DNA of 64,000 nt from Halobellus clavatus (GCF_900107195.1 NZ_FNPB01000001.1:558001-622000), one strand, 5' to 3'. Counted from the stretch's first letter, positions 121-47,041 are shown. Numbers and translations: made by a program. The notes: generated by a model from the sequence alone, not told the origin.

Positions 121-1239
121 ATGGATGACGAGCAAGACAAACTGAATCGATTCCAAGAAGCATTCGAGAGAGGTCAGGAAGGCCAGATCAGCAACTATGA
201 GGCCTGGCTACAGGACCAAGGAATCGACTCAGAGAAAGTAAATAGAGAATACTTGGAACAGTACTTCCGGGAGAACCCGGAGAATGCAGTAAACCACGAA
301 GAAGAGTTAGAGGAAGTTGCGGAGTACATCGGGTTCTTCTCCCGGAGAAGCAACGTCTACCACCTACCGGTTATCGGGATTTCGGAGGTAGGGAAGACCC
401 AGTTCATTCAAACAGTCTCCAACCTTCTCGGCCAGATCGAACCGGAGATCGAGCAGCGAACCTACCGGGCAGACGATTTCACGGAACTTGGTGAAGACGA
501 GGAGAGGATCTTCGAGGTCAGAGATGAGCTTCGAGGCCTGGACAAGGTCGTTGTATACGTTGATGACTGTGAGTGGGCAGAGGCGGAGAGTCTCCTTGAA
601 TCATTCCGCGTGATTGAGAGCGTTGTTGATGACGCGTTCCTTGTCACGTCGTGGACTCCTGAGTACTGGATGCACCACAGGGAGGATGTCGAAACAGTCC
701 TTCCCTCCTCTACTGAGATCCACCTCTCTCCGTTTTCGGAGAAGGATTCACTGGAGGCGTTGAATCAGGTAGTCAAGGTTCTGTCCGATGACGGGTTGGA
801 TCTCCCCGAGGAATTCCTTGAGGAAATCCACCGGTACAGCACCGGTATTCCAGGCGTCTTCACGGACTTGTTGCTTGCTTCGCTACGCGAGGCGTTTGTG
901 AAGGAGTTGGAGTTGGGTAGTACGGAGTCGGTGGAGGCTGCCGCCGGGAAACTGAACCTCGACGAAGTGGAGGAGACGGTGTACGAGTTGTCGGATACGA
1001 AGGTAACGATTCTGACCCATATGCTGCTGTGGAACCACAGGGATGGAATACGGCCGTCTCAGCTTGTCGACCTGCTGGACAGGGACAAGTCAACGGTGTC
1101 GTACCACCTGAAGGACTTGCAGGCAGATGGCTTGGTCGAGTCAGAGAAGCAGGGTCGTTCAGCGTACTACAGGGTCAAGAATCAGGTTAAACCATTCATC
1201 CAGACCAGAATCGCGCAAAACGGTGAGTACAATGGCTAG
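121..1239 (+). CDS. P-loop NTPase with C-terminal winged helix, first gene of the pAgo operon
   Basis: A 372-aa protein starting at the ATG at 121; the frame is open to position 16 but the upstream part is basic and hydrophobic and looks untranslated. Residues 86-93 form a Walker A loop (GISEVGKT) and 143-149 a Walker B strand (VVVYVDD). Residues about 300-365 form a winged helix of the ArsR/TrmB type, ending in a wing with SAYYRVKN. The arrangement resembles archaeal Orc1/Cdc6- or STAND-like ATPases, but I do not recognise a named family. It overlaps the next gene by 8 nt, so it is co-translated with the Argonaute operon. Plausible roles are a DNA-binding sensor or regulator of the operon; this is inference. 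An AT-rich stretch at 64-100 probably holds the operon promoter. Confidence 0.75.
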   Translation: MDDEQDKLNRFQEAFERGQEGQISNYEAWLQDQGIDSEKVNREYLEQYFRENPENAVNHEEELEEVAEYIGFFSRRSNVYHLPVIGISEVGKTQFIQTVSNLLGQIEPEIEQRTYRADDFTELGEDEERIFEVRDELRGLDKVVVYVDDCEWAEAESLLESFRVIESVVDDAFLVTSWTPEYWMHHREDVETVLPSSTEIHLSPFSEKDSLEALNQVVKVLSDDGLDLPEEFLEEIHRYSTGIPGVFTDLLLASLREAFVKELELGSTESVEAAAGKLNLDEVEETVYELSDTKVTILTHMLLWNHRDGIRPSQLVDLLDRDKSTVSYHLKDLQADGLVESEKQGRSAYYRVKNQVKPFIQTRIAQNGEYNG

Positions 1240-1954
1240 TTACAAGATACTACCATTACGGAACGAAGGTATTGATCTCGAAAAGATCGAAAATCGTGTA
1301 GAGAATATGTCGGCGCTGGAGTCCAGCGCAGACCTGAGAAGCGGCACCTTGCCTCGGAGCTTACAGACATTCCGGGGCGAGATGTGCTACGTCGAGTACG
1401 CACAGGAAGAGGAGACAGAAGTCACGACGTTGGAGGGTGAAGATGAGCCGATCAAGGTCGCGGATATGTACCCGATCATCTTCCTCGGGAACGGCTACGT
1501 GGCCTACGATGCTAACCTCCCGAACCAAGACGTCGAAACAGAAGTCGTCCAGATGGTTTCAGACCTGCTGGACACGGACATCTCCTACGAGGCGGTCGAG
1601 TTCGACAAAGACGACTTGGAAGGTGTCGTGGATCAAGCGAACAAGGTTCGGGAAGCCAATTTCAATCCGTCCAATCAGAAGCCGAACAGTGTCTCAGCAC
1701 GGTATCTTCCAGGTCTCCAGGATACTGAAATCTGGCATCAATACGAGAACGATCCAATGGAGAAGGTGAGGGTGGATTTGCCGGATCAAACGACCTATAA
1801 CGTCTCGTTCTACGAGAAGGGGAAAGTCACGGTCCACGGACGAAACATCCCGGTAGATGTCCAGGTCGAGGTTCTCAGGTACATTACTGATGAGGTAGTG
1901 TCTAACCTGGATATCGGTTCGTTCCAGAAGAAGCTGGGAGGTGAGTTCCAATGA
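1232..1954 (+). CDS. Hypothetical protein immediately upstream of Argonaute
   Basis: A 240-aa acidic protein. The ATG at 1232 is preceded by GGTG with a 6-nt spacer; the longer reading from 1127 would run through the previous gene in another frame and is less likely. I do not recognise a domain. It shows two strand-rich stretches, around residues 80-110 (IIFLGNGYVAYD) and 200-230 (VSFYEKGKVTVHG followed by a helix), a sheet-then-helix pattern loosely like the repeats of TATA-binding proteins; this is only a suggestion. The 4-nt ATGA overlap with the Argonaute start means the two are translationally coupled, so it is a strong candidate partner subunit of the Argonaute. Confidence 0.7.
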   Translation: MASYKILPLRNEGIDLEKIENRVENMSALESSADLRSGTLPRSLQTFRGEMCYVEYAQEEETEVTTLEGEDEPIKVADMYPIIFLGNGYVAYDANLPNQDVETEVVQMVSDLLDTDISYEAVEFDKDDLEGVVDQANKVREANFNPSNQKPNSVSARYLPGLQDTEIWHQYENDPMEKVRVDLPDQTTYNVSFYEKGKVTVHGRNIPVDVQVEVLRYITDEVVSNLDIGSFQKKLGGEFQ

Positions 1955-4239
1955 TGCTAACCAATATTTTCCAGATGCGGAACGCTCCGGAAGATCCGTC
2001 GATGCGGCGGGTCAAATTGAGCGGTTTACCTGTCGACGAGAAACGGGACAGGATTTCATTCATACAGGCGATTATCTCGAACTTGAACAAGATGGGTGTC
2101 GACGCGTCGTTGGCACCGCAGGACAGTGAAGGAGATATCACTCTTCTCAGTCCTGACGGTAAGGAGCTAGATCTGGTCAGGGCCACGTACGACAGCTTCA
2201 ACCCTGAGTTCTTGGCCAGTAAGAAGGCGACTCAGTACGAGGTCAAGGAGGCCTGGCAGAACCGGGTGAGGACTCACTTGTCGGAGAACGGGTTCCAGAA
2301 GGTTGGACGCAAGTACGTCAGGGTGGAGGATATCCTTGATCCGTCTTCGGATTTCAAGGAGGCCTATGAGATCCAGGCGGAGATAATCGATGGGGAGCCA
2401 GCGATTTCTATTGATCCGTGTACGCGCATAATGGAGAGTTTGTCCGGTGAGGATATTCAGCGGGCAGGTAACCCGGATGAGCGTGTTGATGTACAGGTTC
2501 TTCCGAAGTGGAAGAATGGTGAACTGGTAGGACGTGCAGGGTTCAAAGCCGGGGACAAATCGTTCGAGTACCACGGTGAAAGCCTCTCCACGCCAAAGTA
2601 CTGGAAGAAAAAGTACGATATCGAGTTCGTGGATGATGACGAGGAGATGCTGGATATCTACATCCCTGATTATGATATGGAGCTTCCTTATCCGGCGTCT
2701 GTCGTCTTCGGAAGTTTCAGCCGTGGACGCTCTCTTCCGGATGATTTGAAGAAGGATCCGAAGCAGAGGGTTTCGGAGGCTGCTACGGCAATCGACCAGT
2801 ACTTCGACTCGATGCAGTTCACCGGGAGTGAAGCGGATCTAAGCAAGCTCACGACCGCGAAGGAACTGGGATACGATACTCCGAGCTTCGGTAGTTCCTA
2901 CGACTTCGATGTCCGGCTGGGCGATGACAGGAAGACCGGGGTTAATGATATTCACAAGTCGTTGAAGAGGAACGGTCCTTACGCTGGCCCGGTCAACGGC
3001 GAGTACGTTGTCATCACTCCGGAGGATGGCCGTGAGATCAGGGATGGGTTCGACGAACTGGCGAGTATTTACAACCAGTTGAACCTGGGTAGTATCTCGC
3101 GGTGTAGCGAGGTCGGAAACGATGGGATCATCGAGGTGGGAAGTCAGAACAGCAATACCTACGCTAACCGGATTACCGAGGTTCGGGATCAGTTGGACGC
3201 TATTGATTCAGACTTGATCGCTTTCGTTGTCCTGCCTGGCCACAATCAGGACGTGTACTTCCAGGCGCGTGGAAAGCTGTTTGAGCGGTTGTTCGGAAAT
3301 AATCCGGTTCCGGCGCAGGCCATTCAGTACAAGAATGTCGTGAAACTGGCCAATGACAACGGGTACTTCATCGGGGTCAACACGGCTTCACAGGTCTATG
3401 TGAAGCTTGGGAAGGTTGGTTCTGCGGTCTGGATACTGGATGAGCCCGCAGATGCACACGTCCCCGGTGTTGAACCTGGTAGTACGTGCTACGCCTACCA
3501 CGACGTCTCCCGTAGGCCGGACAAGAAGTCCGCGGCAACAGCTTACAGCGCCACCACTGATTCCTACGGGCGTTACATCGCAACAGGAGCTCAGCCGACT
3601 GGTGGCGAGAAGCTGACTGACGAGGTCTTCCACAGTATCTTGAATGAGTTGCTGAGGAAGGTTTCCGCGTTCCACCGCCGTCAAGAGACCAGTGGTGAGA
3701 AGGATTTCCACTTCAAGCGGCTGGTGTTCGCCAAGGACGGCAAGATCGGTTGGCAGGAGCAGAAGATGATGAAGAAGGTGATCAGGGAAGGCGTCCCGAG
3801 CGAGGGGAAGCGGCCTATCTCTGAGATCCTCGACGAGTCCGGTCTTCTACCGGATGATATGATTATCGACGTGGTCAGCGTCAACAAGTCTCCGAACAAG
3901 CGCGTGGTCACCCGTGACGGAAACGGGTTTGACAACGTGGCCGGCGGGAACGCGATGATTTACGGTGATGAGAGCGGGCTCCTGGTTTCACATAAGCCTG
4001 AGAGAGGTACGGCGAAGCCCTTGGAGATCACGGCGAATGACCACGTCTCCCTGAACAGGGACGACGTCCCGGAACCGACTGCTGAGAGTCTACTGAAAGA
4101 GTACTACAACTTGAGCTACTTGAACTGGTCCTCGATCTTCAGCCAGGGCAAGTACGCCTTGCCGCAGATACTGACGCAAAATCTCGGAGAAAACCTTTCC
4201 GCCGGGATCGATGTCCCGGAAAATATGGCAATGATATAA
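1951..4239 (+). CDS. Prokaryotic Argonaute (long pAgo) with near-complete catalytic site
   Basis: A 762-aa protein; the start ATG lies 7 nt after a GGAGGTG ribosome-binding site. A MID-like segment spans about 425-490 (YFQARGKLF then VPAQAIQ), and PIWI about 505-750. By eye the PIWI aligns along its length with eukaryotic Ago2: D518 in YHDVSRRP, the glutamate finger E553 in TGGEKLTDE, D596 in FAKDGK, and the terminal LNWSS...YALPQILTQN block. The fourth catalytic position, H or D in most active enzymes, falls on Q743 (or N744). The N-terminal half should contain N and PAZ-like parts, but I cannot assign them with confidence. Known: pAgos use small nucleic-acid guides to bind or cut invading DNA/RNA. 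Neighbours are Mre11, Rad50, NurA and HerA, which suggests that target cleavage or binding feeds into end resection (inference). Confidence 0.85.
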   Translation: MMLTNIFQMRNAPEDPSMRRVKLSGLPVDEKRDRISFIQAIISNLNKMGVDASLAPQDSEGDITLLSPDGKELDLVRATYDSFNPEFLASKKATQYEVKEAWQNRVRTHLSENGFQKVGRKYVRVEDILDPSSDFKEAYEIQAEIIDGEPAISIDPCTRIMESLSGEDIQRAGNPDERVDVQVLPKWKNGELVGRAGFKAGDKSFEYHGESLSTPKYWKKKYDIEFVDDDEEMLDIYIPDYDMELPYPASVVFGSFSRGRSLPDDLKKDPKQRVSEAATAIDQYFDSMQFTGSEADLSKLTTAKELGYDTPSFGSSYDFDVRLGDDRKTGVNDIHKSLKRNGPYAGPVNGEYVVITPEDGREIRDGFDELASIYNQLNLGSISRCSEVGNDGIIEVGSQNSNTYANRITEVRDQLDAIDSDLIAFVVLPGHNQDVYFQARGKLFERLFGNNPVPAQAIQYKNVVKLANDNGYFIGVNTASQVYVKLGKVGSAVWILDEPADAHVPGVEPGSTCYAYHDVSRRPDKKSAATAYSATTDSYGRYIATGAQPTGGEKLTDEVFHSILNELLRKVSAFHRRQETSGEKDFHFKRLVFAKDGKIGWQEQKMMKKVIREGVPSEGKRPISEILDESGLLPDDMIIDVVSVNKSPNKRVVTRDGNGFDNVAGGNAMIYGDESGLLVSHKPERGTAKPLEITANDHVSLNRDDVPEPTAESLLKEYYNLSYLNWSSIFSQGKYALPQILTQNLGENLSAGIDVPENMAMI

Positions 4240-4263
4240 CAAACTAAAGGAGGATTACAAACT

Positions 4264-5637
4264 ATGACCCAATCAAATCAAGGCCCGCGCTTCGTTCACC
4301 TTTCAGACGCACATATCGGCCACCGACAGTACGGTGTAAAGAAACGGCGAGACGATATGTATATGTCCTTCAACACCTCGGTTTACGAGGCTGTTGAAGA
4401 ATCTGAAGTTGATTTCGCGGTTTTCGGCGGTGACTTGTTCCATAATAAGAATGTGAATGCCCGTGCGTTGAGTGATGCTGAGGAAGGGCTTTCACGCTTC
4501 GAGGATGCGGATGTCCCTGTTGCTGCTGTCCGAGGGAATCACGACGCTAACTTGTACAAAGAGGACTTGAACTGGCTGGAGTATCTTCACAGCCGTGGGA
4601 AACTGATTCTGTTAGAGGCTGATCTCAGTGAAGAGGAGGCAGTCTTCGAGAAACACGATTTCGATGATCCGGGTACTTCTTCCGGGTACGTTGATTTAGA
4701 TGGGGTCCGGGTTTTCGGTCTCCAGTACCTTGGACAGAGAACATCTGATAATCTATCCAAGGTGGCAGATGCGATTGAACAGGTGAATGAGAAAGAAGGC
4801 GAGCCTGAAGCTACGGTCCTGATCGGTCACTTCGGCGTTGAAGGCCACATACCAGGGATGAGTGGTGGTATCTCGTTCAATGCCTTGGAACCAGTGGAGG
4901 AAGCTGTCGACTACCTCGCACTTGGTCACCTACATAAGAAATACAGTCACGGGAACTGGGTGTTCAATCCTGGTTCTCTGGAAGCCCACGATACACGGCA
5001 GGCGAGGTGGGATCTCGGTTACTACATTGTTGACGTTGAGGACGGGGAGATTTCCCCTGAGTTCCACGAGTCGAAGCGTAGACCATTCTTTGAGATCAGT
5101 TTCGAGGTTGATGCACACGACTCGCCGGATGAACTGGAGTCAGCGTTTACTGAGGAGGTCGAAGATCATCTTTCGGATCTTGACAAAGTACAGCGGAAGC
5201 CTCATTTCCAGCGTTCCGGGGAGAAGCGTGACCCAGTAATCGATCTTCGGTTAGAGGGTTTGCTACAGTTCAGCCGCTCCAGACTCGACAGTGATATTTT
5301 GAAAGATATTGTTGAGGAGAAAACCGGTGCTCTGTATGTCAATTTGAATGATGCTACGGAGTCGAAGGAGACGGCGAGCATCATCAAAGAATTGGATGGT
5401 GGTGAAGATGCAGTGAGAGATGAACAGGGCCAGATTGACCGAAGTAAGCTGGAATCCGCTGTTTTTCAGCGGTTGGCAGGTCAGGATTCACAGTACGGTG
5501 AGAAGGAAGAGGATGTTGCGGACACGTTGAGTGTGGTGAAGAAGAGCGTATTGGCTGAGGAGAATCCGGAGTCTGTTGCTGAGACTATCAAGAAACGCCG
5601 CAGAGAACTTTTCGATAACGGAGGGGATCAAGAATGA
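4264..5637 (+). CDS. mre11: Mre11 nuclease (MR complex)
   Basis: A 457-aa calcineurin-like phosphoesterase. Metal-binding motifs are in order: D15 and H17 (LSDAHIG), D57 (FGGDLFHN), N92-H93-D94 (RGNHD), then IGHFGVEGH and ALGHLHKKY near residues 185-225. The capping and Rad50-binding C-terminal region follows, to 457. Mre11 is a Mn-dependent 3'-5' exonuclease and endonuclease that processes double-strand ends with Rad50. A strong ribosome-binding site (AAAGGAGG, 4248-4255) precedes the start, and the stop overlaps the Rad50 start by 4 nt. Its position between Argonaute and Rad50 makes this an accessory copy dedicated to the operon; the host presumably has its own chromosomal pair. Confidence 0.95.
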   Translation: MTQSNQGPRFVHLSDAHIGHRQYGVKKRRDDMYMSFNTSVYEAVEESEVDFAVFGGDLFHNKNVNARALSDAEEGLSRFEDADVPVAAVRGNHDANLYKEDLNWLEYLHSRGKLILLEADLSEEEAVFEKHDFDDPGTSSGYVDLDGVRVFGLQYLGQRTSDNLSKVADAIEQVNEKEGEPEATVLIGHFGVEGHIPGMSGGISFNALEPVEEAVDYLALGHLHKKYSHGNWVFNPGSLEAHDTRQARWDLGYYIVDVEDGEISPEFHESKRRPFFEISFEVDAHDSPDELESAFTEEVEDHLSDLDKVQRKPHFQRSGEKRDPVIDLRLEGLLQFSRSRLDSDILKDIVEEKTGALYVNLNDATESKETASIIKELDGGEDAVRDEQGQIDRSKLESAVFQRLAGQDSQYGEKEEDVADTLSVVKKSVLAEENPESVAETIKKRRRELFDNGGDQE

Positions 5638-8333
5638 GGATTACCAACGTAGAACTCTCAAGCATCAAAAGCTACGACGATACAATCAATGAGATCGATT
5701 TCCGCCCAGGAGTGAATGCGATCATCGGGCAGAACGGGTCAGGCAAGTCTACAGTTCAGGAGGCAGTCGGATTTGCCCTGTTCGATTATCTTGATAAACG
5801 CGTCAGCCAGGGTGATTTCGTCCGGAATGGTGAGAATTCTGGAAAGGTTCGTGTGACCTTCATCTCGAATAAGAACGGGAAAAAGTACACCGTCGAGAGA
5901 GATGCGAAGGGATCGATTTACCGGGTGATTGATGAGGCGGATGGTGGAAAATTACCCTTGTCAGGTAAGGACGAGATATTGAGTTGGTTGAAGGAGCATT
6001 TGGGTATTCCAGAAGAGACTGAGCTTGAGACTCTGTGGAAATCCAGTATCGGTGTTCCTCAGACCAAGTTTACTAATGACTTTGCAGAGACCCCGAGGAA
6101 TCGTGAAAGGGTGTTTAACCCGTTACTTGAGGTGAATGTCTACGACGACGTCTGGGAAGATCTCCGAGAAGCAAACAACGTAATTGAGGAAGAGATCAGT
6201 GATCTTGAGACCGAGATTGAAGGCCTGAAATCCAAGGTCGAAGACCTCGACGAAAAGAAAGAGGAATTCAACGACCTAAAGCAGGAGATTGAGGAGAAGC
6301 AGGAGAAGCTAGATGAGCTCAAAGAAGAGCAGGAAGATCTGGAGAAACGTGAAGAGGAACTCGAAGACTTAGACGACCAGATCTCTGATTTAGAGACTGA
6401 GATCGACAAGAAAGAGAGTACTATCGAAGACAAGGAAGACAGCTTAGAAGACGCTGAGGATGCGTTAGAAGAGGCTGAAAAAGCTCAGGATACTATCGAA
6501 GAGGTTGAGGAAGAGTACGAGGAGTACGAAGAGAAAGATGACGAGCTGGATGGTCTCCGTGAACAGGCGAACGAGCGAGATGATATCCAGGACAAAATAA
6601 ACGGGCTAGAGAAGAAGCAGACTGAGTTGGAGACGAAGAAGGAAGGGTTGGAGGAAGATGTCGAGGATGCTGAAGAAGCGAAGGAGGAGATGGAGGATCT
6701 TGAGGACGATGTTGATCGTCAGGAAGAACTTGAAGAGAAGCTGGACGACATCGAAGACAAGGAAGACGAGATTGAGGACAAGGAAGAGGAACTGGACGAC
6801 GCTGAAGATGAGTTAGACGGGATTGAAGATGAGATTGAAGAGTTGGAAGAGGAAATTTCTGAGATCGAGGATCTTGAAGACAAAGCCGATGAGTTGGATG
6901 AGTTAGAAGAGGAAGAGCAGGATCTTCGGGATGAGAGATCGCGGTTGGAGGGCCGTATCGATGACCTGGAAGAGGCTATTGACACGTTAGAGGATACTGA
7001 GGAAGCCGAGTGCCCTACCTGTGGTCAAGACCTTGACAAGAAACATCGTGGAGAGGTGCTGGAAGAGAAACGTGAGGAGAAGTCAGAGGCCGAAGACCGT
7101 ATTTCAGAAATAGAAGGCGAACTGGATGATCTTGAAGACGAGATCAAGGACGCAAAGGATGCTGAGAAGGAGGTTAACCGTCTTCCTGACCTCTATGATA
7201 GGCTCGAAGGCTTGGAGGAAGAGCGCGACGACAAAGAGGAAGAGATCGATGACCTGGAAGATAAAATCGAGGAGTTAGAAGAGGAAGTCGGCGAGAAAGA
7301 TGAACTCGAAGAAGAACTGGATGAACTCGACGACCCGAAGAGCGAGTATAACTCGGCGAAGGCTACGTACGAGAATAACAAGGAAGCTGAGGACGAACTT
7401 GAGGAAGTCGAAGAAGAGCTGGACGACTTAGAGGACGAGATCGACGAGAAGGAAGACGAACTTGAGGAGTTCGAAGGTCTTGATAACGAGATCGAGGAGA
7501 TAGAAGATCGACTGGACGAGTTGGAGGACGCCCACGAAACCTACATCAGCAAAAAGGAGACTGCTGAGAAAGTCGAAGAGCGCCAGGAGAAGGTCGATGA
7601 CCTCGAAGAAGAGATAGAAGGGTTGGAAGACGAGATCGAGGAGAACGAAGAGGAAGTTGAAGAACTGGAAGAGCAGTTCGACGAGGAAGAGTACGAGGAG
7701 GTTCAGGAGAGAATTGGTGATCTTCAGGGTGAAATCGGCAATCTTGAAGGAACTATTGAGACCAAGCAGGACCGTCTCGACGACTTAGAAGAAGAGATCG
7801 ATGAGATGGAGGAGCAGCAGAAAGAGCTGGAAGACAAGCAGGACGAGTACGAGAGCTTAGAGAAGGATCACGAGTTCGGAAAGTTCGTCCGGGAGAGTAT
7901 GAAGGAGGCTCGGCCTCTGATCACCGAGATCCTGGTTAAAGAGATCTCCACCGAAGCGGATCGAATCTACCGCCAGCTTCGAGGCACCGCGACAGAGCAA
8001 CTGGAGTGGAGAACTGATTACGAGATAGTCATTAGAGAGAACGGCGAGGAAAAGGAGTTCCACAAGCTAAGCGGTGGGGAACAGATGAGTGCTGCTCTCG
8101 CTGTGAGACTGGCGATCCTGAAGCTTCTGAGTGACGTAGATATCGTGTTCCTCGACGAGCCTACGGCGAACCTTGACGAGGAAAAGAGACGGAACCTGGT
8201 TGACCAGTTACAGGAGTTGGAAGGTTTCGAGCAGCTCACGGTAATCAGCCACGACGACACGTTCGAGTCGGTGACTGAACACGCGATATCCCTTGAGAAA
8301 GTGGATGGCGCGACTGAGGTGGTGAGCGACTAA
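5634..8333 (+). CDS. rad50: Rad50 SMC-like ATPase
   Basis: An 899-aa protein with the standard Rad50 plan. The N-terminal half-ATPase carries Walker A IIGQNGSGKST near residue 31-41. A very long acidic antiparallel coiled coil follows, with the zinc hook C460-P-T-C463 at its tip. The C-terminal half-ATPase has signature LSGGEQ (812-817) and Walker B IVFLDEPTANLD with D841-E842. Rad50 dimerises through the hook, binds DNA ends and gates Mre11. The coiled coil is extremely rich in Glu, Asp and Lys, which creates long spurious open frames on the opposite strand. It overlaps mre11 by ATGA and nurA by TAATG, so the three are translationally coupled. Confidence 0.97.
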   Translation: MRITNVELSSIKSYDDTINEIDFRPGVNAIIGQNGSGKSTVQEAVGFALFDYLDKRVSQGDFVRNGENSGKVRVTFISNKNGKKYTVERDAKGSIYRVIDEADGGKLPLSGKDEILSWLKEHLGIPEETELETLWKSSIGVPQTKFTNDFAETPRNRERVFNPLLEVNVYDDVWEDLREANNVIEEEISDLETEIEGLKSKVEDLDEKKEEFNDLKQEIEEKQEKLDELKEEQEDLEKREEELEDLDDQISDLETEIDKKESTIEDKEDSLEDAEDALEEAEKAQDTIEEVEEEYEEYEEKDDELDGLREQANERDDIQDKINGLEKKQTELETKKEGLEEDVEDAEEAKEEMEDLEDDVDRQEELEEKLDDIEDKEDEIEDKEEELDDAEDELDGIEDEIEELEEEISEIEDLEDKADELDELEEEEQDLRDERSRLEGRIDDLEEAIDTLEDTEEAECPTCGQDLDKKHRGEVLEEKREEKSEAEDRISEIEGELDDLEDEIKDAKDAEKEVNRLPDLYDRLEGLEEERDDKEEEIDDLEDKIEELEEEVGEKDELEEELDELDDPKSEYNSAKATYENNKEAEDELEEVEEELDDLEDEIDEKEDELEEFEGLDNEIEEIEDRLDELEDAHETYISKKETAEKVEERQEKVDDLEEEIEGLEDEIEENEEEVEELEEQFDEEEYEEVQERIGDLQGEIGNLEGTIETKQDRLDDLEEEIDEMEEQQKELEDKQDEYESLEKDHEFGKFVRESMKEARPLITEILVKEISTEADRIYRQLRGTATEQLEWRTDYEIVIRENGEEKEFHKLSGGEQMSAALAVRLAILKLLSDVDIVFLDEPTANLDEEKRRNLVDQLQELEGFEQLTVISHDDTFESVTEHAISLEKVDGATEVVSD

Positions 8334-9550
8334 TGCCGCTTTACAGAGGCCGTGTAGCCGAGGAACTGGAGGGGAAAAAGTCAGAGTTCACCGGAAAGGC
8401 GATCAACCAGAAGGCTGTTGAGGAGTTCCAGGGTGCTGCGCAGAATCTAACATCTGAGTTCTCATCTGAAGAGATCAAGCAGGCGCTTGAAGAGTATGAG
8501 CTCCCGAGTGCCTTGCCTACTGAGGAGTACAGTGAAGGCGGTGACCTCGTGATCTCATTCGAGGAAAGTTCTGGATGGGAATCTCACGAGGCAGTGAATA
8601 ACTGGGCGAAAAAGAATATCCGTGGTGTGACGACTGTTGCAGCTGATGGTTCTCAGATTGATCCGGTAACAGAGTTTGAGCAGCCTGTTGGTCTTGTTCA
8701 AGCGGTTTGGATTGCGAACAGCCACACAGATGAAGGTGATTACCAGCGAGACGTAGAAACGAAGGTTCTCTCACCGGAGGATATCCTTTTCGAGGACCCG
8801 AATACCGGTCATATTCAGGTCGATAATGAGGAAGTGCCTCTGTCCCGGTTTGAGACGGAGATGCAGGTTCTGGAAAAGCAAATCAAAAAATACAGCGATG
8901 AGAGCGAGCCGCCGGTTGTTCTGTATGATGGCCCTCTGATCCTATCGTTTGCCCAGATGTTTGATCAACCTGTAAGAGAGCGTTACGGGGAGGCGCTGGC
9001 CCGAGTGCTGGCAGCAAGTAAGCATCACGAGGTCCCTGTAGTGGGTTACACGGCGGGTTCCAAAGCCAGTGATTTTGCGAAGATGATCGAGAAGCTGGAC
9101 TTGATCGATGCGAGTAGTTCAGTGCGCGACTATCAAATCTTCGAAGAGATGACCGAGAACTGGGGTGACAGGACGATCCTGTTCAATTCAAGGCGGGACA
9201 ATTCTTTGAACCAGCTTCAGACGACTTACCACGGCGTTGAGTACGACTTCTCAGATAGAATATTATTCTCGTATATGCAGATTGGAAGTGGCCCCCAATT
9301 GGACAGGCTAGATCTCCCTGAATGGGTCTTAGAGGAGGATCTGGTCGACCACGTGATGTCCGTAATCCGTTCCGAATGCGGTGTGGGCCGTGGTTACCCG
9401 GAGATTTTGCAGGCAGCGGACGCTGACGCGGTTATCAGCCGTCAGGATCGGGAAGAGTTCCTGAGGATGTATCAGGATTTCTCGAATGAGAACGATATTG
9501 AATTGAGATGGAATAACAAGGCTCTGTCAAAGAAACGGAGGCGAAGATAA
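8333..9550 (+). CDS. nurA: NurA 5'-3' nuclease
   Basis: A 405-aa NurA-family protein. Motif I is AADGSQ with D105, the second acidic motif is LYDGPLI with D199, followed by VPVVGYTAGSKASDF (about 232-246), and a C-terminal GYPEILQAADADAV segment typical of the family. NurA is an RNase-H-fold nuclease that sits on the HerA hexamer and degrades one or both strands as HerA translocates; with Mre11-Rad50 it generates 3' single-stranded tails in archaea. Its ATG overlaps the Rad50 stop by one base. The next gene starts 4 nt downstream, which makes a nurA-HAS-herA block. Confidence 0.92.
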   Translation: MPLYRGRVAEELEGKKSEFTGKAINQKAVEEFQGAAQNLTSEFSSEEIKQALEEYELPSALPTEEYSEGGDLVISFEESSGWESHEAVNNWAKKNIRGVTTVAADGSQIDPVTEFEQPVGLVQAVWIANSHTDEGDYQRDVETKVLSPEDILFEDPNTGHIQVDNEEVPLSRFETEMQVLEKQIKKYSDESEPPVVLYDGPLILSFAQMFDQPVRERYGEALARVLAASKHHEVPVVGYTAGSKASDFAKMIEKLDLIDASSSVRDYQIFEEMTENWGDRTILFNSRRDNSLNQLQTTYHGVEYDFSDRILFSYMQIGSGPQLDRLDLPEWVLEEDLVDHVMSVIRSECGVGRGYPEILQAADADAVISRQDREEFLRMYQDFSNENDIELRWNNKALSKKRRRR

Positions 9551-9554
9551 TACT

Positions 9555-10178
9555 ATGACACTAGAAAACGACACAGAGGTCGGTTCGATCATTGGTTCAA
9601 ACTCGCATATAGACTATGTCGGAGAGATATACACGGAGACGATGCGGGAGAGCCCGCCGGAGCCGACGGACTTTGAGTTCGGCCAGTTCGTGTATGTGCT
9701 GAAGGAGGTGCAGGGTCAACAACGGGCGTTTATTGGTATTATCTACGACACTCAGCTTGTGGATCCGGATCAAGGAAGATCCGGGCCACGGCTGGCTCAA
9801 CCGGATGAGCAAAACATTTTCCAACCGAGTTACGTGGATGAAAAGCAGGTTCTCACCGGTATTGCACTTCTGGGCTATGCTGAGGTAGAAGACGGTGAGC
9901 TTGTGAATCCTGAGCACTCGATTCCGCGATGGACGTTGGAGATCGACGATGTCGTTCGGAAACTTTCTGAGGAAGACGTAATTCGGTTCCACGAGGTCGA
10001 CGAAGAGGTACGACTGGAGTACTACCAGAGGATAGTCGATGTCGCTGGCGGGTTTGCTGAGGATATTCTCAGCCAAGTCTTGACCGAGCTGAAGGAGGAG
10101 AAGCCCGGTGAAGCAGATGCGTTAGATGTGATTCAGAAGAATCTAGAGTGGCAGACTAAGATGGGAGGTGTTGAATAG
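9555..10178 (+). CDS. HAS-barrel-like HerA-associated protein
   Basis: A 207-aa acidic protein wedged between nurA and herA, abutting the herA ATG directly. Residues about 5-115 read as a small beta-barrel (GSIIGSNSHIDYVGEIY, then FGQFVYVLKE and FIGIIYDTQL), the pattern of the HAS-barrel found at the N-terminus of HerA and some ATP synthase subunits. The C-terminal third is helical. By analogy it may be a free-standing barrel that contributes to HerA-NurA assembly. The assignment is from pattern and context, not from a diagnostic motif. Confidence 0.65.
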   Translation: MTLENDTEVGSIIGSNSHIDYVGEIYTETMRESPPEPTDFEFGQFVYVLKEVQGQQRAFIGIIYDTQLVDPDQGRSGPRLAQPDEQNIFQPSYVDEKQVLTGIALLGYAEVEDGELVNPEHSIPRWTLEIDDVVRKLSEEDVIRFHEVDEEVRLEYYQRIVDVAGGFAEDILSQVLTELKEEKPGEADALDVIQKNLEWQTKMGGVE

Positions 10179-11819
10179 ATGGTTGTCGGAATTGTCTCAG
10201 AGCCGGGCGAAGGTTCCAACGAGTTTGTAATCGTCACCCCTGACGATACTGAGATTAAGACGGGAGAGTTCGTGTACTACACGAGCGATGTAGAGGTCCG
10301 AAATGACGATGGTGAAATTGAAGAGCAGGAAAAGAAGATTTTTGCCCGCGTTACCGGACGTGAGCAGCAGCGCGGGTTCCCAGATCAGTTTATGGCTGAT
10401 CCCGGGGTTTCACCGAATGCTGTAGCTCGTAAACTGGGTATCTCTACTGACGGAGTTGATCTGTACAATATTACTGCGACCGTCATTGGATACTACGACG
10501 AGCAACTCAACGATTTCACAAACCCACGTATTGTTCCGGAACCGGGCACTGAGATCAGTTTAGCGTCTGATTCTGATCTGGAAGACTATCTAACTGAAGC
10601 GGAGCCCGAAGAGGGTTCGGCGTTTATTGGTGACTTGATTCACCGGCCGCCGGAACGGACTAAGATTCATTTGCCGATTGATGCCTTTACGTCGACTCAC
10701 CTGTCGGTGCTGGCGTCGACAGGCAGCGGTAAGTCGTATACTGCTTCTGTACTGGTTGAGGAGATGATGCAGCCAGATTCAAGAGCTGCAATACTGGTTC
10801 TGGATCCTCACGGAGAATATGGCTCCTTGGATGATATGGAGGAAGAGGAGTTGAGTGATAAGTTCCGAGGAGACGACGGTTACTCTCCGGAGGTCCAGAT
10901 CAAGCGACCGGATGATATCCAGATCCGGATCAGTGAGCTTTCGTTAGGTGACCTGTTCTCGATTATCGACGATCCGTCTGATCCTCAGGAACAGGTTCTC
11001 GCAGAAGCTTGGAACCAGCTCCAGTCAGAGGAGGACGATTACATCTCCATCAACAATATCCAGGACAAGGTAGAGGAGGTCGGGGAGGAGAAAGACCTTG
11101 AGAGCAGTGCCCGCGCCTTAGATTGGCGGATTGACAAGGCTCTTGACCGGGACTTGTTCGATCATAGTAACCACCTGTCGCTTCCGGAGCTTCTGGAGCC
11201 TGGGCAGTGTACGGTGCTTCAGTTGGATACTATGGATCTCCGGGATCAGCAGATGCTGGTCAGTGTGCTGTTCCGGAAAATCAATCAAGAAAGAGTTGCC
11301 CACGAAAAGGATCGTGAGTCAGAGTTAGAGTTCCCGGTGTTTGGTCTGCTGGAAGAGGGACATCGATTCGCTCCGGCGGATGGTGATGCCCGCTCTCTAC
11401 CAGTGCTCAGCACGATTCTGAGTGAGGGACGTAAGTTCGGGGTGGGTATCGGGATTATCAGTCAGCGTCCGAGCAAGATAGATGATGACGTACTATCGCA
11501 GTGTAAGACCCAGATCATTATGCAGATCCAGAATCCGCTGGATCAAGACGCTGTGAAGAAGGGTGTTGAGGATGTTGGAGAGGATCTGCTTTCGGAGCTT
11601 CCAGGCCTCACACCAGGACAAGCCATCATAGCCGGTGACAGTGTTAACACGCCGTTCCTTACCCGGATCAGAGAGCGGCATACGGAGCACGAGGCCGAGA
11701 GCTTGGAGGCCACAAAGAGATGGCAGCAGAACTGGAAAGAACAGCAGAGAGGTCCTGAAGGGGTTGCTGAACCGGAGGATGAGGAGGGTGCCGAAAACAG
11801 GGACCAGCCCCTAGATTAG
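10179..11819 (+). CDS. herA: HerA bipolar DNA translocase/helicase
   Basis: A 546-aa HerA/FtsK-superfamily ATPase. An N-terminal HAS-barrel covers about 1-110; Walker A is ASTGSGKSYTA with K185; ILVLDPHGEYG follows about 30 residues later. Walker B and the sensor region are FGLLEEGHRFAP and ISQRPSKIDDDVLSQC, with the C-terminal block LPGLTPGQAII, all diagnostic of HerA. It forms hexamers that pump DNA into NurA. It ends in a disordered acidic tail. It is the last gene of the pAgo operon and converges with a minus-strand regulator, overlapping it by 9 nt. Confidence 0.95.
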   Translation: MVVGIVSEPGEGSNEFVIVTPDDTEIKTGEFVYYTSDVEVRNDDGEIEEQEKKIFARVTGREQQRGFPDQFMADPGVSPNAVARKLGISTDGVDLYNITATVIGYYDEQLNDFTNPRIVPEPGTEISLASDSDLEDYLTEAEPEEGSAFIGDLIHRPPERTKIHLPIDAFTSTHLSVLASTGSGKSYTASVLVEEMMQPDSRAAILVLDPHGEYGSLDDMEEEELSDKFRGDDGYSPEVQIKRPDDIQIRISELSLGDLFSIIDDPSDPQEQVLAEAWNQLQSEEDDYISINNIQDKVEEVGEEKDLESSARALDWRIDKALDRDLFDHSNHLSLPELLEPGQCTVLQLDTMDLRDQQMLVSVLFRKINQERVAHEKDRESELEFPVFGLLEEGHRFAPADGDARSLPVLSTILSEGRKFGVGIGIISQRPSKIDDDVLSQCKTQIIMQIQNPLDQDAVKKGVEDVGEDLLSELPGLTPGQAIIAGDSVNTPFLTRIRERHTEHEAESLEATKRWQQNWKEQQRGPEGVAEPEDEEGAENRDQPLD

Positions 11820-12218
11820 CTTCTGTACCTGGTCTCTGAAGACCTCGAATTTCCTCTCCAATTCTTCTACTCGGTTTTCCAGTTCGTGGGTTTTTTCGAC
11901 GAGTTCGCTGTGACTAAGATTTTCATATTCGTCTAGATCCGTCCGTTCCGAATGTTCCAGGTACTGTTGTCCTTTCTCGGTTAGCTGTGCTTGTTTGGGG
12001 TGTTGGAAGACCCGTTTCTGCCCTTCTATTACTCGTTCGACGGTGCCGTCTGGTTTTGACACCGTGAGTAGTCCGTGTTGTTCGAGTTTTTGGAATGCGT
12101 AGGTGACGTGGTGGTTTTCGAGGGTGGTTTCTGAGGTGATTTTCTGTACGTCGTCGTTGCCACTCCGGATTTGCTGGAGTATGATTTGTTCTTTGTCTCT
12201 GAGTTCTGGTTCAGTCAT
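11811..12218 (-). CDS. Winged-helix regulator with C-terminal coiled coil
   Basis: A 135-aa protein. Residues about 8-55 form a winged helix (TLENHHVTYAFQKLEQHGLL); about 95-135 form a coiled coil (ELENRVEELERKFEVFRDQV). This domain pair is common in haloarchaeal plasmid regulators. It overlaps the coupling-ATPase gene by 8 nt and is the last gene of the minus-strand conjugation operon, so it may autoregulate transfer genes (inference). Its 3' end overlaps the 3' end of herA. Confidence 0.75.
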   Translation of the reverse strand: MTEPELRDKEQIILQQIRSGNDDVQKITSETTLENHHVTYAFQKLEQHGLLTVSKPDGTVERVIEGQKRVFQHPKQAQLTEKGQQYLEHSERTDLDEYENLSHSELVEKTHELENRVEELERKFEVFRDQVQKLI

Positions 12219-14130
12219 CAGCTGCTGTTAGGACGCATTGTGTTTCGAGTGCGGAGCAGAATCCCTGGTCGTCGCGGTAGAGGCAGAAGTTTTCCAGGTC
12301 TTCCCGGTCGTTGTGCTCCAGTTCAGGGCACTCGTTTTCCACTTCTTCGTGCTCCTCTAGGGTGTCGCCGCTGAGCTCCAGTACGCGGTACTCGGCCTGC
12401 CTCAGTTCCTCGACGTCGGTGATGGGTTCGCTGTCTTCGTTGGTGTAGTAGCTGTAGCTTCCTTTCTGGTCTTCGTGTTCATTGCCGCGGCGGTTGACCG
12501 GGTCGGAGACGATGTTCTCCAGTTTCGCTGCTTTCCCTTCCTCGACGACGAAGAACACTTCCCGATCCTCCTGGACGCCTCTACGCAGGTTTTTCAAGAC
12601 TTTTCCGGGCTTTGTCAGTGTGGAGTGTTCTGCTTCGAGGTGTGCGACTTCGTTGTCGGGTAGGTGGACGTGGCCGTCGGGTTTCTCTTCTTCTTGACCT
12701 TGGTACAGCAGGTTGACGTGGAATCCCCGGTTTTCTAGATCTTGTTTGGCTGCTGCGAGGAGTTCCTGGTGCTTTTCTTGGCCGGCGTTGGCCTGGTTCC
12801 CGAGTGACTGGGTAAGCTGGACCTGTGTTTTGTTGTTGGTGCGGGCGGCAGCTTTCTCCGCTTTGATCTTGTCGACGTCGCTGTAGTCGGCTTCCCAGGG
12901 CGGGTACGTGTTGAACAGGACTGCGTTTCTCTGGTTCTTCTCCGAGGGTTTCTGGACTACGGCTCGGTACTTACCGAGGCTGGTCAACGTGTGTTTATCG
13001 ATGCCTTGCAGCATTCCTGCGATCTGCGACGTGTTTTCGCTGCCGCTGGGGTTGAAACAGATTTTGGTCCGGCAGTTGTTGGATACGGCCCGCCGCATTT
13101 CTGATGCGAGTTGTTGGAGGTACTGTGTGGCGAGCCAGCAACCTAAGCGGTATTCGCGGGCTTCGGACAGGATTTTGGTGAAGTTGCTGCCTTCGCCGGC
13201 GAAGTTCTGGAGTTCGTCGACGTACAGGAAGAACGGGGTGCGTTGTTCCTGGGGTTGTGTGATCCGGCTTTGTGCTGCTGCCCAAATCTTGGTGATGACA
13301 ATACTTCCGACGAGTTCTGAGACGGTCCCACCGACCTCTCCCTTCTGAATATCCACCAAGACGATCTTCCCGTTGTTGACAGCTTTTCTGAAGTCTAAGC
13401 CGGATTCTTCTGCGCCGATGACTCTGCGGATGGTCGGGTTCATCACGAAGTCGTTCAACCGTCGCTGCAAGGGCTCCATCTCGTAACTACTCATATCTTC
13501 TTTGACCCGAACGAGTTGTTCCCGGATGACGGAATCCCGTGTCTGGTCGATGAGCTCGGTTAGTGGTTCGTCTTGGATTACGCAGCGGAAGACGTCGACC
13601 AAGGTTTTCGAAGAGTTTTGTTTGATATTGAGGTCGAGGTGTGCCCTGAGGAGTGTTTCGAGGACTCGTCCGAACTGGTCTCCCCAGTTCTCGCTTTGGC
13701 GTTTGAACAGGTCGATGAGGTCGGAGACGATGATCTCCTTCTGGTTCTCCCTCTGCGCCTGATTCATCCCTTCCGTAACCTGGGGTTCGAGGACGTTGAT
13801 CGGGGTCACCGGTTCCCTGGCCGGGTTGATGTAGACTACGTCGTCCAGCCTGTCTTCAGGTAGTTTGGCGATGAATTCGTCTATCAGGTCTCCTTTCGGG
13901 TTGAGAATGGCGAGGCCGTGATCTTTCTCTGCGTCCTGTAGTGCGACGTGGAGCAGGAGCTGGCTTTTGCCGTAGCCGGTCGGCCCGATGTTCAGGACGT
14001 GAGTCGGTCTGTAGTCATCATTGACGCCGACGTTTTCCTCGACTCCTAACTGGCTTTCACGGAAGCCGAGGTACGTCGTGGTCAGGTTTTCTGTGCTTTC
14101 GATCAGTGTACGGGTATCTTCCGGGTTCAT
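12211..14130 (-). CDS. VirD4/TraD-like conjugation coupling ATPase
   Basis: A 639-aa ATPase. Walker A is NIGPTGYGKSQ with K55; ILNPKGDLIDEF follows; Walker B is FFLYVDELQNF near residue 300; then CWLATQYLQQL and CFNPSG. These are T4SS coupling-protein features (TraG/TraD C-terminal domain). Unlike bacterial VirD4 there is no N-terminal membrane anchor. The last 50 residues carry four cysteines (CPELEHND, NFCLYRDDQGFC, QCVL), which could bind zinc. It would bring DNA to the transfer channel. It overlaps neighbours on both sides by 4-8 nt. Confidence 0.85.
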   Translation of the reverse strand: MNPEDTRTLIESTENLTTTYLGFRESQLGVEENVGVNDDYRPTHVLNIGPTGYGKSQLLLHVALQDAEKDHGLAILNPKGDLIDEFIAKLPEDRLDDVVYINPAREPVTPINVLEPQVTEGMNQAQRENQKEIIVSDLIDLFKRQSENWGDQFGRVLETLLRAHLDLNIKQNSSKTLVDVFRCVIQDEPLTELIDQTRDSVIREQLVRVKEDMSSYEMEPLQRRLNDFVMNPTIRRVIGAEESGLDFRKAVNNGKIVLVDIQKGEVGGTVSELVGSIVITKIWAAAQSRITQPQEQRTPFFLYVDELQNFAGEGSNFTKILSEAREYRLGCWLATQYLQQLASEMRRAVSNNCRTKICFNPSGSENTSQIAGMLQGIDKHTLTSLGKYRAVVQKPSEKNQRNAVLFNTYPPWEADYSDVDKIKAEKAAARTNNKTQVQLTQSLGNQANAGQEKHQELLAAAKQDLENRGFHVNLLYQGQEEEKPDGHVHLPDNEVAHLEAEHSTLTKPGKVLKNLRRGVQEDREVFFVVEEGKAAKLENIVSDPVNRRGNEHEDQKGSYSYYTNEDSEPITDVEELRQAEYRVLELSGDTLEEHEEVENECPELEHNDREDLENFCLYRDDQGFCSALETQCVLTAADD

Positions 14131-15104
14131 TGTTCAGCTTGGGTGATGTTTTCCTGCTCAATGCTGGGCAGCGACAGCAGGGCGGCGAGTTCGGGAACCG
14201 AAGTTTGGAAACTGTGGCTCCAGGATCCGAACTGTCGGTGGGCGACCGTTTTTGCGAAGTCGAGGACCCGCTGTTCCCGAAGTGATTTGACGGTGACTGT
14301 GTCGAGGTATTGGCCGGTGTCCGGGTTTTCGAAGGTGTTGTAGCCGCCGCTGAGTTCCTTCACCCGGCTCTGCGTGTATTCGTCTGCTCCGATAACCAGG
14401 AACCGGATACTGGTGTGGAAGCGGTTGGTTCCGGCCTTGTCTTCGATGGCGTCGGCCTGCCGTTTTTCCCGTGGGGTCGGGTTACGGCTGCCCCACAGCT
14501 TTTCTTTCTCTTTACGGAGGTAGCCGATTCTCTGGTATGCTCTCTTCCTCCAGTACCACCGACGCAGGGGTTTGCCGATGACGGGTTGGAACAGGATTTG
14601 TACGATGAACTTGGTGTCTCTCATCGCGTGCCTGTGCAGGCTGGAGACGACGGAGTTCACCGGCGGTTGTTTGAATTCGTGTTTCAGCGGGTACCAGTCT
14701 TTCCTGCCTGTGGTGAGGAGTCCTCCGCCGACTGTGTCTTCTGAGGCGACTGGGATTCCGTTGGTGCCTTCTTCGAACCGGATTCCTGGTATTTCGTTGG
14801 TGAGGTGTGTCCGTAGTTTCCGCTCTAGTCGGACTGTGGGTGTGGAGAACTGGAACTTGATTTTGTCTGGGTGGGTTCGCCGGATTTCGAAGGCGGCGAC
14901 TGGTGACGTGTTTAGGAGTCCGAAGTACTTGGACTGTAGCTCGGTGACGGCTCTCACCAGGTTTTCCGGGACTGCTGGAATGTCTCCGTTCCTTGGTGTC
15001 TTGACTTCGATGGTGTGGGACTGTACCGCGGGTTTCCGCAGGTGTTCTGCTTCCTCTTCGGAGGGTGTGGTTGTGTAGTACAGGAGGGGGTCAAGGAGGC
15101 TCAC
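14127..15104 (-). CDS. Conjugation-operon protein of unknown function
   Basis: A 325-aa soluble protein between the VirB4 and coupling-ATPase genes, overlapping both by 4 nt. It has a basic central stretch (about 195-245, WYWRKRAYQRIGYLRKEKEKL) and no membrane segment or signal peptide that I can see. I recognise no catalytic motif. The fixed position between the two T4SS ATPases suggests a structural or adaptor subunit that links them; this is inferred from context only. Confidence 0.7.
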   Translation of the reverse strand: MSLLDPLLYYTTTPSEEEAEHLRKPAVQSHTIEVKTPRNGDIPAVPENLVRAVTELQSKYFGLLNTSPVAAFEIRRTHPDKIKFQFSTPTVRLERKLRTHLTNEIPGIRFEEGTNGIPVASEDTVGGGLLTTGRKDWYPLKHEFKQPPVNSVVSSLHRHAMRDTKFIVQILFQPVIGKPLRRWYWRKRAYQRIGYLRKEKEKLWGSRNPTPREKRQADAIEDKAGTNRFHTSIRFLVIGADEYTQSRVKELSGGYNTFENPDTGQYLDTVTVKSLREQRVLDFAKTVAHRQFGSWSHSFQTSVPELAALLSLPSIEQENITQAEQ

Positions 15105-17260
15105 TGGTTTTCACCCTGGTTGATGATCTGGTGTTCGATGTCTGTGGATTCGATCTTGATTCGGGTGTCGAGTTTTCCGGAGATTTTCAGGAGTGCTTCG
15201 CTGTACTCGCTTTCTGTCCCGGTTTTGAGTTCGTGGAGTTCCTGTCGTTCCCGGTCGGAGAGTTGGAAGTATTCGACGACGTCGTCGGGCACCCGGTCGT
15301 GCCTCATAAACACTTTACACGGCATATTGTCGAGGATTTCACGGCCTTCTCGGCAGTAGGTGAAGTGGGAGGCGTTCTGACTGATTAGGGTGACTGCGGT
15401 GTTGGTATCTCGTCCTTCGAGGACGAACTGGTTCAGGACTTGTCGCCCGGTTTCGTGGTTCATCAGGATCCGGGCTTCGTCGATCAGGACCAGTGTTTTT
15501 CTCTGGTTTTTGCTGGTGTAGCTGTAGATGTCTTGTACCAGATCGACGAGTTCGTCGACGTCGTCTCTTTGGCCGCGTTCCTCGACTTGGAAGCAGAGGT
15601 GCTGGTCGTCGAGTTGTTCGAGGCTTTGTTTGTGTGGGAGGGTGATGCAGGTTCCGTCGAGGCTTTGAATGATTTCGTGGTACTCTTTTTTCGGGTCTAC
15701 TGCGATGATCTGAAGATCGTCGTAAACGAGGTCAGCACGCAGTAACTCGATTTTGGCGGCGTAGCTTTTGCCGGAGCCGACCATTCCCATCCGGGCCATT
15801 GAGTGAGACGGCCACTGGAATCGATCGGCGAGGATGGGTGCTTCGTCGCTGGTGTCTACGCCGTAGATGACACCGTTTCTTTGACCGGTTTGCTGTGTTC
15901 CGAAGGGGAAGCCTGCTGCTGCGGTGGTGGATGGTACTAACTGGGTTTCGTTCAGAGGGTCGGGGTACAGTGGCTGCTGTGTTTTGTAGGCTTGATCGGT
16001 TCTGAGGAATGTGTTCCCGTACTTGATTTGCTGGGTGTCTAACCTGTTTTTGATCTGTCTAAGTGTTTGCCGGCACTTGGTTTTGGATTTGCTGTGTGCT
16101 GTGATGTAGACGGCGTGGTCGACGGGTTGTGCTTTCCTGTCTGCGAACAGGTCGAGGATCCATTCCGTGTCTTCGAGCAGTGATTCGAGTTTGTTGGTTC
16201 CGCGGTAGCCGTGGCTGAGGAAGGAATCGATCTCGGCGTTCAGTTTCTCCGAGATGCGTTGCAGTTTCCTCGTTGCTTTACCTGTGTCTCTGGGTTCGAT
16301 GACCTGTGTTACGTCGATGAGGCCGTCGGTACGCAACAACTGTAGAGGCCAGCCCAGCTCGACGCTAGACGGGTATTCGGAGATGTACAGGGTTTTCCTG
16401 TACTGGTGGCTGGAGTTGTAGTCTTCTCTGCGTGAGTTCCAGGTCGGCGAGGTCTGCGGTCCTGTGTCTCCACCGATTATGACATTTCCCTCACTGAACC
16501 GGTGTACCTTGCTTTTCAGGCTTGATTCGGTGAGGCGTTCGGCCTGTAGATCTGCTGTGTTGAGTGTGGTGATGACTTCACGGCACCGGTTGTCCAGTTC
16601 GCTTCTACGGTTTTTCTTCCGTGAGTAGTTGTTGTACTGGAGTTTGTCGAGGAGCCAGTGACCGGTGTCTTTCTCCGATTTCAAGATGATGTAGTGTTTG
16701 GTCGTGGATTGCTCTTCCTCGGAGAGTGAATTGATGTATTGCGAGTAGTGCTCTCCTAGATCTGTGCCGGGAGAGCCTCTTTGCCAGATGTTTTCCTTGT
16801 AATTCCTCAGATTGCGGCTGCGCTGCTGTGAGTGGATGTGGATCGGGTAGGTGACGGTGTCCAGCAGGTCCTGATAGATGTTGTGGAGGGCTCCTTGCTC
16901 GGTGTCCGTCTTCATATCCAGGTTGGTCGGTGAGACCTGGATTACCGCTGCTATGGTGTCTCTATCTAGTCTGACGTACTCGTCTCTATGGGGTGCTACA
17001 CTCGGTGCTTTCAGTTGCCGCTTGTTGATGAACCAGCGTGGAGCGTGGTATGCGAGCTGGTCCAGGTGGTGGCCGAGCGGGGTCCACCGGTACCAGACTG
17101 CTCCCAGCACTAATGCCGAGGCCAGTACCGGTATCGGGGCGTTGGTGAAGTATGCGAGTGCTGCCGGCGTGAGGAGCCTGGTCAGATCTTTGACTGTGAA
17201 CTGGCCGAACAGTTTCGTGTCGACGTCGAGCCTGCCAGGTGCCTTGATTCTGAGACTCAT
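15101..17260 (-). CDS. VirB4/TrbE-like T4SS ATPase with PrgI-like N-terminus
   Basis: A 719-aa protein. Residues 20-65 hold two hydrophobic segments of the PrgI/VirB3 kind; the ATPase part has Walker A MVGSGKSYAAK (about 500) followed by IIAVDPKKEYHEI. Walker B is TLVLIDEARILM and the last motif TAVTLISQNASHF. VirB4 ATPases energise pilus assembly and substrate transfer at the cytoplasmic face of the membrane. Fusion of the VirB3-like anchor to VirB4 is known from other T4SSs. It overlaps the channel-protein gene upstream by one base. Confidence 0.87.
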   Translation of the reverse strand: MSLRIKAPGRLDVDTKLFGQFTVKDLTRLLTPAALAYFTNAPIPVLASALVLGAVWYRWTPLGHHLDQLAYHAPRWFINKRQLKAPSVAPHRDEYVRLDRDTIAAVIQVSPTNLDMKTDTEQGALHNIYQDLLDTVTYPIHIHSQQRSRNLRNYKENIWQRGSPGTDLGEHYSQYINSLSEEEQSTTKHYIILKSEKDTGHWLLDKLQYNNYSRKKNRRSELDNRCREVITTLNTADLQAERLTESSLKSKVHRFSEGNVIIGGDTGPQTSPTWNSRREDYNSSHQYRKTLYISEYPSSVELGWPLQLLRTDGLIDVTQVIEPRDTGKATRKLQRISEKLNAEIDSFLSHGYRGTNKLESLLEDTEWILDLFADRKAQPVDHAVYITAHSKSKTKCRQTLRQIKNRLDTQQIKYGNTFLRTDQAYKTQQPLYPDPLNETQLVPSTTAAAGFPFGTQQTGQRNGVIYGVDTSDEAPILADRFQWPSHSMARMGMVGSGKSYAAKIELLRADLVYDDLQIIAVDPKKEYHEIIQSLDGTCITLPHKQSLEQLDDQHLCFQVEERGQRDDVDELVDLVQDIYSYTSKNQRKTLVLIDEARILMNHETGRQVLNQFVLEGRDTNTAVTLISQNASHFTYCREGREILDNMPCKVFMRHDRVPDDVVEYFQLSDRERQELHELKTGTESEYSEALLKISGKLDTRIKIESTDIEHQIINQGENQ

Positions 17261-46781: not shown

Positions 46782-47041
46782 ATTCCCCGCTTTTGCACCT
46801 TACAACAAGAGTCTTGACTGCAAAGACTCGCTTCGGGCCTAGTATTCTTGCTCAGGCCGAAAGACTGCTTGCCCGGTGTTTCAAGGGGGTGCGCGATAAT
46901 ACTAAGTTGACGAAGAGACCGGCCAGCTACAGGAAATACAGGGAATTCCAAGACGGCGACGTGGTCTGAAATATAGACGAAATATGTGTTGTGTGAAGAC
47001 GGTCAAAATTCCGGTTTCAGGCCACGAAATGTATCAACGTC
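46782..47041. other. Gene-free end of the element
   Basis: No convincing gene. It has a perfect inverted repeat GAGTCTT/AAGACTC (46809-46829) with a 7-nt loop, and an imperfect one around 46832-46866 (TTCGGGCC ... GGCCGAA). These may be terminator, recombinase-arm or small-RNA structures. Confidence 0.45.

Follow-up and report, generated by a model that had tools for sequence, protein, structure and literature searches.

A divergent haloarchaeal Argonaute encoded in one operon with an accessory Mre11-Rad50-NurA-HerA set

In the 64,000-nucleotide stretch of Halobellus clavatus DNA analysed here (the window; NZ_FNPB01000001.1:558001-622000), a very divergent Argonaute (pAgo) is encoded in a single tight operon with relatives of Mre11, Rad50, NurA and HerA, and a PLD nuclease gene adjoins the operon. 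We read this as a composite, horizontally moving immune locus in which a guide-directed pAgo-PLD pair and its own end-degradation machine would serve one pathway, a reading that we give about an even chance of being right. We infer that the parts act together, in what order they act and that invading DNA is their target. The locus bears on how archaeal Argonautes obtain their guides and on why DNA-processing enzymes are so often their neighbours; here a candidate partner machine lies in the same operon.

Reading frames and family searches place eight genes on the plus strand at positions 121-11819. All seven junctions fall within -8 to +24 nt (G1/G2 -8, G2/pAgo -4, pAgo/Mre11 +24, Mre11/Rad50 -4, Rad50/NurA -1, NurA/G7 +4 and G7/HerA 0), and GGAGG-like ribosome sites precede the internal genes. 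The tight, one-direction operon described in an earlier sequence-only reading is thus confirmed, and family searches agree with its naming of an NTPase with a winged helix, a protein of unknown family, pAgo, Mre11, Rad50, NurA and HerA. Its boundary was drawn too narrowly, since a divergent PLD gene that belongs to the locus begins on the opposite strand ~125 nt before G1, just outside the window. Positions 1-120 (no strand assigned), between PLD and G1, are predicted to hold a shared divergent promoter region; a sigma-70/terminator scan, which is not apt for archaea, gave matches at chance level. Compared with the locus of a strain from another genus (G334), dN/dS was 0.025 for pAgo, 0.05 for PLD and 0.07-0.10 for G1, G2, Mre11 and G7, and because these values are low we conclude that the six genes are under purifying selection; synonymous sites were saturated in Rad50, NurA and HerA. 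Both the overlapping operon and the selection argue for a single pathway.

The pAgo gene (positions 1951-4239, plus strand) encodes a 762-aa protein that matches the PADLOC pAgo profile at 4.5e-51 over residues 332-755, which gives it MID-PIWI homology; its Pfam Piwi match is below the Pfam cut-off. The protein forms a clade of its own in a tree of haloarchaeal pAgos, and the branch of this clade is 3.4 changes per column long. All enzymes of the operon had been said to keep their catalytic residues, and this stands for Mre11, Rad50, NurA and HerA, whose motifs are intact, and for the PIWI triad D518, E553 and D596, but at the fourth tetrad position the alignment places Leu, where 12 of 12 other aligned haloarchaeal pAgos carry the D of YAD. 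The same Leu occurs in the G334 protein and in a decayed copy (G014), and a C-terminal piece from G313 is alike. Aligned in this way, the protein lacks the complete DEDX tetrad (X = D, H or N) of long-A pAgos, and its slicer activity is therefore uncertain; a shift of the alignment by one residue would put Asn at the fourth position. The length leaves room for N and PAZ domains (AF2 pLDDT 30, from a shallow alignment). No solved structure matched the single sequence, and only a mixed profile (A1), built in part from other pAgos, matched CpAgo among others. Relatives of this pAgo were absent from the viral contigs and plasmids searched, a direct scan of the genome contig collection gave no confirmed match, and weak matches to the N-terminus (E ~1e-3) came from G176 and G033.

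The upstream gene encodes an AgaP-type PLD nuclease (C19:555962-557995, or L008:15963-17996; minus strand; Pfam PLDc_2 6.4e-07) that is 96% identical to its G334 relative, 68% identical to that of J07HQX50 and 65% identical to those of loci L084 and L107. It keeps an HxK motif (HSK, within VHSKIY) and is a relative of AgaP, the partner of a haloarchaeal pAgo in the APAP system, which consists of a long-A pAgo and the AgaP PLD in Natrinema pellirubrum (Cheng et al. 2024, PMC11442185). AgaP is needed for APAP plasmid immunity, and the role of the motif's His and Lys is taken from the same study (PMC11442185); APAP is characterised by immunity to plasmids and viruses and by a pAgo that restrains the toxicity of its PLD. 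Archaeal (Thermococcus) HerA-NurA, for its part, degrades both strands from any type of end, and an antiviral role was suggested by the authors (PMC12977600). The need for AgaP and this breadth of end degradation are further grounds for the one-pathway reading. The locus resembles APAP in that a haloarchaeal pAgo has as its neighbour a PLD nuclease carrying an HxK motif. However, the PLD gene here is divergent from the operon rather than co-directional, and its product is just 33-39% identical to the APAP-type PLDs that we met; the pAgo is very divergent and by alignment incomplete in its tetrad, whereas APAP has a catalytically complete pAgo; and further genes have been added, namely G1, G2 and a five-gene module.

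That module, Mre11-Rad50-NurA-G7-HerA (MRNH), occupies the remainder of the operon, all on the plus strand. It begins with a Mre11-like nuclease (4264-5637; metallophosphoesterase 1.3e-12; motifs D.H, GD..H, GNHD and GHLH) and a Rad50-like ATPase with a CPTC zinc hook (5634-8333; AAA_23 1e-18; Walker A, CPTC and LSGGE). These are followed by a NurA-like nuclease (8333-9550; PF09376 2.2e-31) with intact DGS and DG motifs, whose D105 and D199 are invariant in seven relatives; by the conserved module protein G7 (9555-10178), present in 40 of 391 genomes; and by a HerA-like hexameric ATPase (10179-11819; DUF87 4.5e-38) with a readable Walker A, STGSGKS. The best solved relative of HerA is 9x1l (1.5e-42), and the Sulfolobus-type HerA 4d2i matches at 1.6e-35. 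NurA had no relatives among the phages searched. G7 had been called HAS-like, a label that we reject as unsupported, since an hhalign comparison of G7 with the HerA profile detected no similarity (probability 0.4%). Against NCBIfam equivalog cut-offs, Mre11 scored 71 bits where 600 are required and 70 where 550 are required (Mre11_Halo), Rad50 at best 322 against 700, NurA 17 against 400 and HerA 183 against 970. Elsewhere the genome encodes another Mre11-Rad50 pair and another NurA. Because the four enzymes fall far below the cut-offs for repair orthologues and a separate Mre11-Rad50 pair exists, the operon set is, on sequence criteria, accessory and paralogous and not the cell's repair machinery. 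What had been taken for the complete Mre11-Rad50-NurA-HerA resection machinery is thus right as to the four families and their intact motifs, and has to be amended in that they are accessory paralogues with a distribution of their own. Compared with the archaeal Mre11-Rad50-HerA-NurA repair set, the window set shares the enzyme families and differs in being accessory, mobile, additional to a separate Mre11-Rad50 and extended by G7.

A conserved neighbourhood in other genomes had been set beforehand as the test of the proposal, and such a neighbourhood was found among 391 haloarchaeal genomes. With G7 as the marker of MRNH, the module was present in 40 genomes and pAgo in 62; thirteen had both, and in nine of these the two lay no more than 11 kb apart (G000, G014, G095, G373, G151, G224, G334, G068 and G141), with G313 as a gapped tenth case. 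Co-occurrence at the level of genomes was modest (odds ratio 3.0, p 0.005). The proximity speaks for one pathway and lies far beyond what uniform placement would give (naive chance ~1e-17), a model that takes no account of defence islands or common ancestry. Linkage with MRNH must have changed state three times or more on the pAgo tree, which by the phylogeny puts it in at least three pAgo lineages, and this recurrence also favours one pathway. Mre11 and/or Rad50 occurred at 23 of 60 pAgo loci (both at 16), a set that includes close relatives and is hence not independent; UvrD, AddB-like or PD-(D/E)XK proteins occurred at 24, PLD at 32 and some DNA end-processing enzyme at 47. These annotations came from BLAST over a range of ~9 kb with seeds found in some of the same loci, and the helicase class is loose. 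Mre11, Rad50, UvrD and PD-(D/E)XK were each absent from 20 random loci, a weak control for defence-island clustering, two of which had an MrfA-like helicase match. The excess of Mre11/Rad50 (23 of 60 against 0 of 20) likewise supports a joint pathway, and the recurrent haloarchaeal pairings suggest that these Argonautes work with DNA-end processing.

The first two genes accompany this linkage. G1 (121-1239, plus strand; MarR_2 6.4e-07) is an NTPase (GISEVGKT) with a C-terminal ArsR/MarR-like winged helix; homologues 42% identical to it adjoin pAgo and MRNH, and further homologues lie in CBASS loci. G2 (1232-1954, plus strand, with its ATG at 1232) is a conserved protein of about 240 aa that matched no family in Pfam, PADLOC or NCBIfam; its AF2 model has a mean pLDDT of 52 from a shallow alignment, its relatives are 30-44% identical, and none was found in viral contigs. 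The best seven G2 matches in the 391 genomes all adjoin pAgo and MRNH, and in the loci that we read it is the Mre11 side of the module that bears the pAgo cassette; both observations add to the case for one pathway. The idea that the G1-G2 pair uniquely links pAgo with MRNH was considered and ruled out, since the pair also occurs in CBASS-type operons ordered G1-G2-TGT-like-CD-NTase-SLATT (L137, L138, L139 and L140). The window operon has no CD-NTase, and G1-G2 alone is common to it and these four loci. That this pair also travels with a CBASS operon makes a regulator or damage sensor the most likely role for G1-G2. L137 and L138 both come from a single contig of G128 and seem to be identical copies. 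Separately, the 3' two thirds of G2 (window 1501-1950) are just 68-79% identical to G334 between flanks of ~93%, which may represent local replacement or fast divergence.

The main rival explanation is that one island carries two independent defence modules, a pAgo-PLD pair and a stand-alone MRNH that degrades DNA, which recombination has repeatedly brought together and which have a promoter but no pathway in common; we consider this possible, though less likely than the joint pathway. The data on modularity and mosaicism fit it well. The whole locus is present in G334, with an identity to the window of ~93% up to about nt 4350 and ~70% beyond, and this drop, at the pAgo/Mre11 boundary, shows that the two sides, pAgo and MRNH, have been exchanged independently of each other. 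In G014 the pAgo has decayed to a C-terminal remnant and the Mre11-Rad50-NurA-G7-HerA frames are open, and G347, which has no pAgo, still carries MRNH and G1 together with MrfAB-like genes and a G2 that is broken. The set is not dedicated to the Argonaute, since 31 of the 40 genomes carrying MRNH have no linked pAgo; the module stands mostly beside Shango, restriction-modification-type or other defence genes. On two plasmids (Natrinema zhouii and DL31; L094:6401-14273 and L095:6587-14318) MRNH lies directly behind complete Shango genes SngABC, at a distance of ~200 nt; SngABC were identified by PADLOC in L095, and L094 has the same layout. A type I restriction system on the integrative element that carries the window operon also suits two modules. 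The absence of linked pAgo, the Shango plasmids, the G014 decay and the identity break all count against one pathway. On the other side, two independent modules do not readily account for linkage recurring in at least three pAgo lineages, for translational overlap or tight spacing of the genes, or for the convergent use of unrelated end-processing enzymes beside other pAgos. Overall, the survey suggests that the accessory module forms a unit of its own that is associated with defence, for which we found no description in the open-access literature searched.

Other relatives show how the locus varies. The five MRNH genes occur in the same order, at 35-52% identity, in the accessory NurA loci long enough to show them. 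Pieces of pAgo 51% identical to ours occur in G313 and G392; in G313, Mre11-Rad50 lies on the pAgo scaffold, whose gene order we leave out because N runs break it. Halopiger djelfimassiliensis, Halobellus inordinatus and Natrinema hispanicum DSM 18328 carry a 12-gene locus in which HerA-G7-NurA-Rad50-Mre11 is divergent from G1-G2-DUF2797-pAgo-MrfB-like-MrfA-like. PLD lies beyond HerA in the first two, and in N. hispanicum it was not within the stretch read. HerA of H. djelfimassiliensis (L131:976-2651) and the pAgo of G068 (L073:9157-11679) are each split in two frames, by decay or sequencing error.

Under the one-pathway reading, a guide-loaded pAgo would, as in its family, recognise invader nucleic acid, and the divergent PLD nuclease would cut it, perhaps together with pAgo although the fourth metal ligand is replaced. 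Accessory Mre11-Rad50 would then open or clean the resulting DNA ends, from which HerA-NurA, with G7, would degrade the DNA. More speculatively, the degradation products could be loaded as new pAgo guides. By analogy, such feedback would be compatible with work on bacterial pAgos, in which ends processed by RecBCD supply part of the guides and RecBCD is reported not to be required for guide biogenesis (PMC10269773). Both cases combine a pAgo with a machine that degrades DNA ends, a relationship that is functional there and inferred here; however, the bacterial machine is host-encoded and unlinked, whereas ours is unrelated to it and encoded in the operon. A broader proposal is that MRNH is a portable haloarchaeal defence add-on for different recognition systems (several pAgo lineages and Shango), its pAgo version loading degraded invader ends as guides and so forming an archaeal parallel, encoded in one operon, to the bacterial pAgos fed by RecBCD; in this full form we think it unlikely. 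Since the partner is in the same operon, guide supply and target destruction should be separable by single-gene deletion.

The operon lies on a 56,090-bp integrative element in tRNA-Thr(GGT), with a GC content of ~50% against 65% for the contig. Its right attachment site, a 45-bp repeat of the tRNA 3' end, is at 47041-47085 (plus strand), the left copy is at C19:548951, and a tyrosine integrase (L008:9149-10315; Pfam 4.7e-22) stands beside the left end. TraD/TrwB-like and VirB4/HerA-like conjugation-type ATPases (12211-17260, minus strand) are conserved beside the operon in G334. These genes, and a Thermus mobile element whose HerA-like ATPase and NurA serve DNA donation (PMC5365140), could mean that pAgo and the end-processing enzymes work for the element and not for cell defence, by acting in conjugative transfer, in recombination or in excluding rival elements, which we judge improbable, as elsewhere MRNH and pAgo lie in chromosomal or plasmid islands and transfer genes were not seen in the stretches read.

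A search across 5.39 million open-access papers gave no description of a pAgo with Mre11, Rad50, HerA or NurA, and the main texts of Ryazansky et al. 2018 (PMC6299218) and Makarova 2009 do not name the four as pAgo partners. Ryazansky et al. describe pAgo loci with UvrD, PD-(D/E)XK or Cas4-type enzymes (PMC6299218), which are like ours in placing pAgo beside DNA-processing enzymes and differ in the enzymes involved.

Other haloarchaeal pAgos adjoin different Mre11/Rad50/HerA sets, which also favours the one-pathway reading. At seven loci (L083, L084, L085, L086, L096, L098 and L107) a second divergent set comprises a HerA-like protein, a protein of 441-457 aa and a Rad50-like protein, with a Mre11-like protein where the stretch reaches; the 441-457 aa protein, which matches nothing in Pfam, may be an analogue of NurA. 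In Methanocaldococcus jannaschii, Ago presumably adjoins Rad50 and Mre11 (MJ1321, MJ1322 and MJ1323), and if so this neighbourhood would be an older archaeal precedent. In G052, a pAgo that we take from its sequence to be NgAgo (L087/L088) has a DUF2797 neighbour, and its contig also carries an accessory MRNH operon at a distance of ~20 kb.
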